Source: Rhodospirillaceae bacterium
Lineage (GTDB): Bacteria; Pseudomonadota; Alphaproteobacteria; Rhodospirillales; JABHCV01
Length of the DNA: 43,765 bases
Assembly (NCBI GenBank): GCA_013204045.1
Contig: JABMOQ010000170.1
Location: 1 to 43,765, forward strand
Reading direction: 5' to 3'
Shown here: in pieces, positions 33,380 to 36,534 of the stretch
Numbering within the stretch: the stretch's first letter is position 1
Layout of the letters: each line of letters begins with the position of its first letter
Position numbers and translations under genes: made by a program
Notes under the pieces: generated by a model
Seen by the model: only the letters and a program-made list of their open reading frames with translations
The model's database searches: none
Told to the model about the DNA's origin: nothing

Positions 33380-33796
33380 GTGACATACGCCGGGGATATT
33401 ACATCACAACAAACATGGGACAGGCTGATGACCGATTCCCAGTCCGTGCTGCTTGACGTACGGACGCCGCCGGAATGGAGCTATGTGGGCATTCCCGATA
33501 TTTCATCCATGGGCCGTGAGCCGGTGCTGGTGCCGTGGCTGTTGTTTCCGTCCAACGAGCAGAACCCGGATTTTGTCGCCCAGATCGAGGCCGCCATCCC
33601 TGACAAGGATGTCCCGTTGCTGATCGTTTGCCGGTCCGGGGTGCGCTCGAAGGCGGCCGCCATCATGCTGACGGCGGCCGGGTTCAAGACCTGTCACAAC
33701 GTCGACCACGGTTTTGAAGGCGACAAGGATGGGGCCGGACACCGGGGCACGGTCAACGGCTGGAAAGTTGACGGCCTGCCCTGGTTGCAAGGTTAG
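33380..33796 (+). CDS. Rhodanese-domain sulfurtransferase
   Basis: The 138-residue single-domain rhodanese has LLDVRTPPEW near residue 24 and the active-site loop C84-RSGVRS, giving the persulfide-forming Cys. An insertion (VGIPDISSMGREPVLVPWLLF) before the active site is seen in a subgroup of bacterial rhodaneses. It starts at a GTG with GAGGAG upstream. It is convergent with metZ and divergent from the flavoprotein fusion, so a link with sulfur transfer is possible but not shown. A 13-bp tandem repeat runs over its stop codon. Confidence 0.88.
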   Translation: MTYAGDITSQQTWDRLMTDSQSVLLDVRTPPEWSYVGIPDISSMGREPVLVPWLLFPSNEQNPDFVAQIEAAIPDKDVPLLIVCRSGVRSKAAAIMLTAAGFKTCHNVDHGFEGDKDGAGHRGTVNGWKVDGLPWLQG

Positions 33797-33817: not shown

Positions 33818-35020
33818 CTAAGCCGCGCCGAGCGCCCGGTCCAGATCCTCTTTCAAATCTTCCACATCTTCCAGACCCACCGATAGGCGGATCAGGCCGT
33901 CGCCGACGTTCATAAGGCTGCGCTCTTGCGGACTCAGCCGCTGATGGGTGGTCGTCGCCGGGTGGGTAATCAGGCTTTTGGCATCGCCCAGATTGTTGGA
34001 GATGTCGATTATGTCGACCCCGTTCAGCACCCGGAACGCTTCGTTCCGTCCGCCGGGAACCTCAAACGAAACAATGGTCGAGCCTGAGTTGTTCATCTGC
34101 CGCATGGCCAGGTCGTGTTGCGGGTGGCTGGCCAGGCCCGGATAGATCACCCGGGCGATGCCTTTTTTGCCTTCCAGATGGCTGGCCACGGCAAGGGCGT
34201 TTTCAGACATTTTGTTGACGCGCAGGTCCAGGGTCTCGAGACCCTTCAGCAAAATCCATGCATTGAATGGGCTTAAGGTCGGCCCTGTGTTGCGCAGGAA
34301 AGGGCGCAACTGGTCCATGGCAAACTCCTCGTCGTTGCTGAGGATCGCGCCGCCCATGGTTCGCCCCTGACCGTCGATGTGCTTGGTCGCCGAATAACAA
34401 ACGATGTCGGCCCCAAGTTGCAACGGCTTTTGCAGAACCGGCGTTGCGAACACGTTGTCGATAACGACCCGGGCCCCGGCCTTGTGGGCCAATTGGGAAA
34501 CGGCAGCGATATCAATAATTTCAAGGGTCGGGTTCGACGGAGTTTCCATAAATACGGCATTCGCCGGTTTCGACAGGGCTCTTTCCCATTCGCTTAAATC
34601 CGTGCCGTCAATAATTTCCGTTTCGATGCCATAAGTGGGCAGCAATACGGTGACGATGTAATGACACGAGCCGAACAGGGCGCGCGACGAAACCACCCGG
34701 TCGCCGGTCTTTAACTGGCTCATCAGGGCGGCGCTGACGGCGGCCATGCCGCTGGCTGCAGAGGCGCAATACTCGGCGCCTTCGAGCAGCTTCATGCGGT
34801 CTTCGAACATGTTTGTGGTCGGGTTATCGTAGCGCGAATAGACAAGCCGGTCGATGTCGCCCTTGAAGGCGCTCTCGGCCTCTTCTGCTGATGCATAAAC
34901 ATAGCCCGAGGTTGGGAAAATAGCCTCGGATGTTTCGTCAAAATGCGAACGCTGGGTGCCGCCGCGAACCATCTGGGTCGCCGGTCGCCAGTTTTTTGGG
35001 TCTGTCTTGTCTTCGCCCAT
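33818..35020 (-). CDS. metZ: O-succinylhomoserine sulfhydrylase (PLP-dependent)
   Basis: The 400-residue enzyme makes homocysteine directly from O-succinylhomoserine and sulfide for methionine synthesis. It belongs to the Cys/Met-metabolism PLP family: YSRYDNPTTNMFEDR near the N-terminus, SGMAAVSAAL, and the PLP lysine in CYSATKHIDGQGRTMGG. NWRPATQMVRGGTQRSHFDETSEAIFPTSGYVY is typical of MetZ. The ATG at 35020 is preceded by a purine-rich AAAGAGAG sequence; a longer start at 35071 would fall in the riboswitch leader. Expression is probably controlled by the SAM-II riboswitch and terminator just upstream. O-acetylhomoserine as substrate cannot be excluded. Confidence 0.92.
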   Translation of the reverse strand: MGEDKTDPKNWRPATQMVRGGTQRSHFDETSEAIFPTSGYVYASAEEAESAFKGDIDRLVYSRYDNPTTNMFEDRMKLLEGAEYCASAASGMAAVSAALMSQLKTGDRVVSSRALFGSCHYIVTVLLPTYGIETEIIDGTDLSEWERALSKPANAVFMETPSNPTLEIIDIAAVSQLAHKAGARVVIDNVFATPVLQKPLQLGADIVCYSATKHIDGQGRTMGGAILSNDEEFAMDQLRPFLRNTGPTLSPFNAWILLKGLETLDLRVNKMSENALAVASHLEGKKGIARVIYPGLASHPQHDLAMRQMNNSGSTIVSFEVPGGRNEAFRVLNGVDIIDISNNLGDAKSLITHPATTTHQRLSPQERSLMNVGDGLIRLSVGLEDVEDLKEDLDRALGAA

Positions 35021-35057: not shown

Positions 35058-35083
35058 GGGGCTTTGACCAATAAAAAAGCCCC
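35058..35083 (-). repeat. Inverted repeat GGGGCTTT/AAAGCCCC overlapping the metZ leader terminator
   Basis: Perfect 8-bp arms (35058-35065 and 35076-35083) surround a 10-bp spacer. On the metZ transcript the first arm is the 3' end of the terminator hairpin plus part of its U tract. It is therefore a third, mutually exclusive pairing for this leader, possible only once transcription has passed the terminator. Confidence 0.5.
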
Positions 35084-35094
35084 GACCGGTCGGG
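35072..35094 (-). terminator. Intrinsic terminator in the metZ leader
   Basis: The minus strand reads CCCGACCGGTCGGG (35094-35081), a perfect palindrome able to form a five-pair GC-rich stem, then GC and six U residues. It lies between the SAM-II aptamer and metZ. Its 5' arm is complementary to the 3' edge of the aptamer. Confidence 0.7.
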
Positions 35095-35111
35095 TCAGGG
35101 CTCTACGAGCG

Positions 35112-35167
35112 CCGACCGTTTAGCGAGTTTTTAAAGTGGCCGCAAGCAGGTCGTGCAAATCGCCACA
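35112..35167 (-). promoter_or_regulatory. SAM-II riboswitch upstream of metZ
   Basis: Read on the minus strand, the sequence has the SAM-II layout. GTGGC (35166-35162) pairs with GCCAC (35140-35136) to form P1. GATTTG opens the loop, TGCTTGC closes it, TTTAAAAA follows P1, and CGCTAAA precedes the 3' strand. The loop bases CGACC (35153-35149) can pair with GGTCG in the 3' segment (35117-35112) as the pseudoknot. SAM-II aptamers are known upstream of methionine genes in alphaproteobacteria and repress when SAM binds. Confidence 0.88.
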
Positions 35168-35176
35168 TGTGGGTTT

Positions 35177-35205
35177 GTCTTAATCCGACAATGCCAAGGG
35201 GTCAA
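35177..35205 (-). promoter_or_regulatory. Predicted promoter of the metZ leader
   Basis: On the minus strand TTGACC (35205-35200) and TAAGAC (35182-35177) are separated by 17 bp. Transcription would begin around 35170, immediately before the SAM-II aptamer. It lies in the gap just after the DUF3422 stop codon. Confidence 0.5.
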
Positions 35206-35211
35206 GAAAAT

Positions 35212-36534
35212 TCAATCATCCTTAGGGGCCGCCAACGCCCGGCGCAGGCGTCGGATGCCAAACCAGATCACCCCGATGACGATGGGCAATGACAATCCGG
35301 TGACCATGTCGGAATTGATCGGAAGTCCGGCTGCCTTGACCGATTTTGCGGCATAATTAACCATCCCCAGCAGGTAATAACTGATGGCGACGACAGAAAG
35401 CCCTTCGACAGTTTCCTGCAGGCGAAGCTGTGTTCTGGCCCGGCGGTCCATTGATTCGAGCAAATCCCGGTTTTGTTCCTCCAGCGCCACGTCGACCCGG
35501 GTGCGCAGCAGGGCGCTGGCCCGACCGATGCGTTCCGACAGGGTGGTAATGCGTTCTGCGGCGGCACGGCAAGTATCCATGGCCGGGGCGAGGCGGCGAA
35601 TAACGAATTCGCCCGGCGGCTGCAGGCCACGGACCTGACTGATGTCTTCAATCCGTACTTCACGCAGTTCCTTGATGCGGCGCGTGACCAGCGCGTGATA
35701 GGCGCTGGATGCGGTGAACCGATAGTTGACATCAAGGGACAGGCCTTCAATGCGTGCCGCCAGCGTTGTCAGGGTCTTCAGTGTCTGGCGTTCATCCTCG
35801 CTACCATCATTTTCAGCCATGCCGTTGATCAGGTCGCGCAGTGTGCGTTCGGCTTCAGCCACTTTGGGAAACAGATCGCGGGCCAACGGAAACGACAGCA
35901 TTGCCATCATGCGATAGGTGCCGACCTCAAGCAGTCGTTGCACCAGCCTGCCAGCCTGACGTTGATTCATGCCGTTGTTGCGGACAAGAATGCGGTTGAA
36001 TCCGTCTTCATGGACACGAAAATCCGTCCACACCAGGGCTTGGCCGCCGCGCATACCGCTGCCGGTGACCGTATTGTTGGCGAACAGGCTTGCCAGACTG
36101 GCGAAGTCGCGTTCGGGCATATCTTCCGATTCAAGCACCAGATGGGTGGCCGATAGCACCTGGCCCGGAAGGTTGCTCATCCAGTCGGCGGGGATGCGGC
36201 CGATAACCGGGTCAGCGAAGGGGTCTTTAAAGGCGCCGTCGGCATAGAAGGTGATGGAAGAAAATTCCGTATGGCGTTCCCATTTAAAGCGAAGCTCAGA
36301 GCCTGATCCGCTTTCCAAGACGCCGGAATGGTGGGTGGCCCCGGTATCCGGTCCCGGTGCGCCGAAAGAAGCGCACAGGCTGGTAATATGGCGATGGTCG
36401 GCGGCGGTCTGGCCTTCCCCCGACAGCACCACCAGATGGGAAACCCTGATTGGCGGGCGGACAAGACCATAGGGCCGGGCGTGGACTTCTTCAGCCAGTT
36501 CCTTGCGTAGGGTATGTTCGGGAAAGGGGTTCAT
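35212..36534 (-). CDS. DUF3422-family membrane protein
   Basis: The 440-residue protein begins MNPFPEHTLRKELAEEVHARP, the characteristic DUF3422 opening, with RVSHLVVLSGE next. The middle is helical with long coiled-coil-like segments. The C-terminus has two likely membrane helices (SVVAISYYLLGMVNY and LSLPIVIGVIWFG), suggesting an inner-membrane protein with a large cytoplasmic domain. The function of the family is not known. The ATG at 36534 is chosen for the family start; a GTG at 36582 would add 16 residues. It diverges from tldD across about 100 bp with no clear shared operator. Confidence 0.85.
   Translation of the reverse strand: MNPFPEHTLRKELAEEVHARPYGLVRPPIRVSHLVVLSGEGQTAADHRHITSLCASFGAPGPDTGATHHSGVLESGSGSELRFKWERHTEFSSITFYADGAFKDPFADPVIGRIPADWMSNLPGQVLSATHLVLESEDMPERDFASLASLFANNTVTGSGMRGGQALVWTDFRVHEDGFNRILVRNNGMNQRQAGRLVQRLLEVGTYRMMAMLSFPLARDLFPKVAEAERTLRDLINGMAENDGSEDERQTLKTLTTLAARIEGLSLDVNYRFTASSAYHALVTRRIKELREVRIEDISQVRGLQPPGEFVIRRLAPAMDTCRAAAERITTLSERIGRASALLRTRVDVALEEQNRDLLESMDRRARTQLRLQETVEGLSVVAISYYLLGMVNYAAKSVKAAGLPINSDMVTGLSLPIVIGVIWFGIRRLRRALAAPKDD

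Follow-up and report, generated by a model that had tools for sequence, protein, structure and literature searches.

Introduction

Putative terminators follow many SAM-II aptamers, with a promoter just before P1 (Corbino 2005, PMC1273637), and among riboswitch classes in the alpha- and beta-Proteobacteria it is SAM-II that most often comes with a terminator (Barrick & Breaker 2007, PMC2258182). Both accounts are general statements, and the passages covered here give no single antiterminator register. The metZ riboswitch of Sinorhizobium meliloti has been predicted to terminate transcription, and with SAM in vivo an sRNA of ~100 nt goes up and the mRNA goes down, with promoter activity and RNA stability also shifting (PMC9373788, 2022). 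RNA-seq in Gluconobacter oxydans covered the SAM-II 5'-UTR of this gene 20-fold more deeply than the ORF (PMC5756330, 2018), and the same paper cites a terminator/antiterminator prediction for this leader. The structurally studied example, metX from the Sargasso Sea (PDB 2QWY, PMC10907184), hides its ribosome-binding site in the pseudoknot.

Here, we describe a SAM-II riboswitch upstream of metZ in a 43,765-nucleotide contig of a Rhodospirillaceae bacterium, the whole of which is referred to as the window. Its aptamer, promoter and terminator are arranged as in the general accounts for alpha- and beta-Proteobacteria, as far as the passages covered go (PMC1273637, PMC2258182). It shares the aptamer class, the gene, an upstream promoter, a downstream terminator and a predicted RNA of ~100 nt with S. 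meliloti metZ and its RZ sRNA (PMC9373788); that organism belongs to a different order and provides in vivo data, whereas the switch in the window is predicted from sequence, and the likeness concerns the layout of the elements and the predicted outcome. The leader of the Gluconobacter oxydans O-succinylhomoserine sulfhydrylase gene, likened here at the level of gene and aptamer, has the same gene and aptamer, and the RNA-seq data suggest termination within it. With Sargasso Sea metX, the window shares the aptamer class and a switching strand in the pseudoknot, but not the hidden ribosome-binding site. The kind of switch is known, metZ is a known target and the arrangement has already been described in this bacterial class. 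A preliminary description of the window had presented SAM-II attenuation as notable, a novelty that the statement of Barrick & Breaker, as seen in the passages covered, contradicts; its premise that SAM-II switches usually act on translation mirrors the Sargasso Sea metX example. Control of termination by SAM-II is widely predicted and has little direct biochemical proof. The window leaves the overall picture of these riboswitches unchanged, and it adds a clean, readable example together with an alignment of its relatives.

Architecture of the metZ leader

All elements of the leader lie on the minus strand, in the order DUF3422 stop codon, promoter-like motif, SAM-II aptamer, intrinsic terminator, Shine-Dalgarno-like AGGAAAG and metZ. 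The metZ gene (33818-35020) encodes an O-succinylhomoserine sulfhydrylase, with a TIGR01325 score of 562.7 bits (cut-off 510) and a Cys_Met_Meta_PP match. Its likely start is the ATG at 35020, picked by AGGAAAG (35038-35032) and by homologues.

The aptamer (35176-35100) matches RF00521 over the full length of the model (positions 1-79 of 79) at 54.7 bits and an E value of 1e-9 by cmscan, where the gathering threshold is 36 bits; a second RF00521 match was not found in the genome. It lies where a SAM-II aptamer is expected, upstream of a methionine-synthesis gene that scores above the TIGR01325 cut-off. P1 pairs GUGGC (35166-35162) with GCCAC (35140-35136), and the aptamer loop CGACC (35153-35149) is complementary to GGUCG (35117-35113), forming an H-type pseudoknot. 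Across relatives, loop and strand pair better with their own partners than with swapped ones (z -5.3). The 3' strand of the pseudoknot, GGUCGG (35117-35112), is near-invariant in relatives and is common to the antiterminator described below. We infer that this copy of the aptamer binds SAM.

Upstream of the aptamer, the promoter-like motif (35206-35177) comprises CTTGACC (35206-35200), a 17-nt spacer and TAAGAC (35182-35177). A TTGAC/TTGCC-like -35 element occurs 40-62 nt before the aptamer's GATTTG in 41 of 45 order-level leaders; a consensus promoter scan did not report the motif of the window. Judged by these motifs, the promoter is probably used and would start transcription just before the aptamer. 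Downstream, as expected of an attenuator, an intrinsic terminator lies between the aptamer and the gene. It consists of GAGCCCUGACC (35103-35093), the loop CGACC (35092-35088), GGUCGGGGCUU (35087-35077) and a U-tract (T6, 35078-35073), and its 11-bp stem has a predicted energy of -20.4 kcal/mol. An independent terminator scan found the same hairpin. The preliminary description had placed GGTCGG, CGACC and the T6 of the terminator at these positions, and CCGACCG at 35093-35087, and all of these are where it put them.

The hairpin could simply terminate the upstream DUF3422 gene, which is on the same strand and ends at 35212. We give this reading hardly any credence: between the stop codon and the hairpin come the full aptamer and, before it, a promoter-like motif that is conserved, and a hairpin is kept in that place in most metZ leaders of the class. 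The layout also bears on whether SAM acts on translation, with the ribosome-binding site hidden in the pseudoknot as in metX. This is the best-studied mode for SAM-II (PMC10907184), and some metZ leaders of other families have no terminator. In the window, however, the likely ATG comes ~92 nt after GGUCGG, which does not resemble a Shine-Dalgarno sequence, so that the pseudoknot strand holds no ribosome-binding site near the start codon; AGGAAAG is outside the aptamer, on the far side of the terminator. We regard translational control here as very unlikely.

A predicted transcription attenuator

The pseudoknot strand has a second potential partner in the 5' arm of the terminator. In the antiterminator hairpin (35117-35093), GGUCGG (35117-35112) pairs with CUGACC (35098-35093) and GCUC (35110-35107) pairs with GAGC (35103-35100), with a C35111/C35099 mismatch between the two helices and a GUA loop. 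This hairpin, GGUCGG-C-GCUC-GUA-GAGC-C-CUGACC, has a predicted energy of -14.5 kcal/mol and masks all but one of the 11 bases in the terminator's 5' arm. It excludes both the pseudoknot and the terminator, as the antiterminator of an attenuator should. When nascent RNA was folded from 35119, the antiterminator was the first fold, appearing once the 3' end reached 35095-35093, and the terminator appeared only once 35079 had been made.

On this basis, the SAM-II riboswitch very probably shuts down metZ by attenuating its transcription. RNA polymerase would start just before the aptamer. Without SAM, GGUCGG and GCUC would pair with GAGC-C-CUGACC as soon as this is transcribed, and the polymerase would go on to transcribe metZ. 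When SAM is bound, the CGACC loop of the aptamer would keep GGUCG in the pseudoknot and leave the terminator 5' arm free, whereupon the terminator would form and a leader RNA of ~100 nt would be released. The antiterminator is predicted to be ~6 kcal/mol less stable than the terminator, so that kinetics probably decide the outcome: it forms first and would have to last only until the polymerase clears the U-tract. In these folding models the terminator would win at equilibrium even without SAM, and the switch would depend on kinetics. The preliminary description had likewise proposed that a SAM-bound pseudoknot frees the terminator arm and halts transcription, and this core idea is supported by the anatomy of the leader, its conservation and the published orthologous leaders. 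SAM-dependent termination at this leader is what would be predicted from the elements, which exclude one another, and from their predicted energies, folding order and conservation; the locus is real and conserved, and it is very probably a SAM-dependent transcription attenuator.

The register of the antiterminator

The same attenuation could operate through a different register, in which CGGUCGG (35118-35112) pairs with CCGACCG (35093-35087). This 7-bp helix, which the preliminary description had proposed as the antiterminator, does exist, with a predicted energy of -11.2 kcal/mol alone and -15.0 kcal/mol with the inner GCUC:GAGC helix, equal to that of the conserved register; because of the latter value, it may form as an alternative fold in this window. 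For a short stretch of transcription, with the 3' end at 35086-35083, it is the fold of lowest energy. However, it forms later, and CCGACCG lies largely in the terminator loop rather than in the 5' arm to which it had been assigned: bases 35092-35088 are the loop of the most stable terminator, and only the end bases 35093 and 35087 are in the stem. Besides this window, only a few leaders have the pairing; most relatives lack it and have retained GGUCGG opposite a CUGACC or CCGACC in the 5' arm of the terminator. We consider it unlikely that the switch in the window uses the CCGACCG register, and as a general antiterminator CCGACCG was rejected, relatives keeping CUGACC instead. The register is corrected to CUGACC (35098-35093), extended by GCUC:GAGC, which supplies exact positions for compensatory mutations.

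Conservation of the complementarity

In the window alone, the complementarity between the pseudoknot strand and the terminator is marginal when the hairpin is permuted with its structure preserved (p 0.11 scored by the best contiguous helix, p 0.06 scored by hairpin energy), since both are GC-rich. The contiguous-helix permutation test is similarly weak for each leader (median p 0.13). The complementarity stands out only once relatives are added. RF00521 is present in 43 of 60 searched relatives and in 190 of 385 genomes of the class. Among metZ-type leaders, 170 were parsed, and a U-tract terminator lies within 45 nt of the aptamer in at least 136 of them; the detector overlooks some hairpins that are set off from the U-tract by spacer bases, as in leader L019. 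When the stretch running from the pseudoknot strand through the terminator 5' arm was folded in 59 distinct leaders, most of them from the order of the window, at least four bases of the strand paired with the arm in 53. The loss of this complementarity in homologous leaders, against which the preliminary description had staked its model, is not what we observed.

Across 105 distinct metZ leaders, the strand pairs with its own terminator at an average of -9.4 kcal/mol, versus -6.6 kcal/mol with 41 unrelated terminators from the same loci (Mann-Whitney p 9e-8, uncorrected for kinship of the leaders). With arms of at least 70% GC, the unrelated terminators average -7.0 kcal/mol against -9.4 kcal/mol for the own ones. 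These comparisons bear on the possibility that the terminator is constitutive and outside aptamer control, giving a low basal level of metZ and a leader sRNA; S. meliloti metA is followed by a terminator for which this has been proposed and for which no response to SAM is predicted (PMC9373788). The hairpin is indeed more stable than either antiterminator, but the pseudoknot strand is complementary to the arm in most leaders, far beyond what unrelated terminators give, and we judge a constitutive terminator improbable. Conservation of the complementarity, as read from these alignments and predicted energies, is strongly supported and favors an attenuator controlled by the aptamer.

Covariation contributes less. 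The preliminary description had pointed to covariation in related metZ leaders as a check: the aligned set yielded none, and a class-level comparison gave a faint signal. A fixed alignment of 47 leaders has paired bases in 89.0% of its antiterminator cells versus 88.5% in shuffles, with no covariation above shuffles, so at the order level the pairing is kept by invariance. In a swap test on 105 distinct class-level leaders, own pairs were better than swapped ones (z -3.6; 0 of 5000 shuffles). After de-clustering to 47 representatives below 85% identity, the observed value was reached in 126 of 5000 shuffles (p~0.03), and with 14 or fewer representatives the swap-test signal was lost. Two leaders fit compensation as single cases, and are suggestive only: in L176, the pseudoknot strand carries GACC, the terminator 5' arm GGUC and the 3' arm GGCC, and in L181 the three read GGCC, GGCC and GGUC. 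Covariation of the aptamer strand with the terminator arm is likewise suggestive only.

A mismatch kept in the antiterminator

The pseudoknot strand and the bases that follow it, GGUCGG-x-GCU, nearly duplicate the terminator 3' arm, GGUCGG-G-GCU. Of the 35 order-level leaders with GGUCGG-x-GC, 34 have A, C or T at x and one has G (a count uncorrected for relatedness of the leaders), whereas the matching base of the terminator 3' arm is G in 47 of 47 aligned leaders; one mismatch is therefore kept in the antiterminator. We tentatively speculate that the metZ SAM-II switches of the order share a kinetic design, in which the non-G position makes the antiterminator always the weaker, earlier competitor. 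If so, selection for the mismatch would be a tuning rule, one not found in the literature on SAM-II riboswitches covered here. As a class-wide rule the mismatch was rejected, as many class-level leaders have GGUCGGG at this place, and it may be at most a habit of the order of the window.

Related leaders and neighboring genes

Several metZ SAM-II leaders (L091, L094, L095, L096, L099, L102 and L106), from Magnetospirillum, Nitrospirillum/Azospirillum and Acetobacteraceae, are without a U-tract terminator and may use another expression platform. A common SAM-II-like variant, GATTTGGACTGCTTGCC...CCACG...GCGCTAAGTGGGCT, precedes metK in L042, L046, L047, L050 and L051, also without a U-tract terminator. 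Only L042 among these five scores above the Rfam threshold, and the variant could be a translational relative of SAM-II. In L044 and L045, SAM-II-like leaders with a terminator lie before an ABC-transporter ATPase gene resembling metN. Two weak SAM-II-like leaders share a contig in L048 (G004:C27), ~1.06 kb apart; downstream of each come a GC hairpin with a U-tract and then small ORFs.

In the window, a rhodanese-like ORF on the plus strand (33380-33796) with weak sulfurtransferase matches converges with the end of metZ. As a rhodanese-looking ORF in L063 lies directly 3' of a separate SAM-II match, the ORF in the window may be part of a methionine/sulfur regulon.
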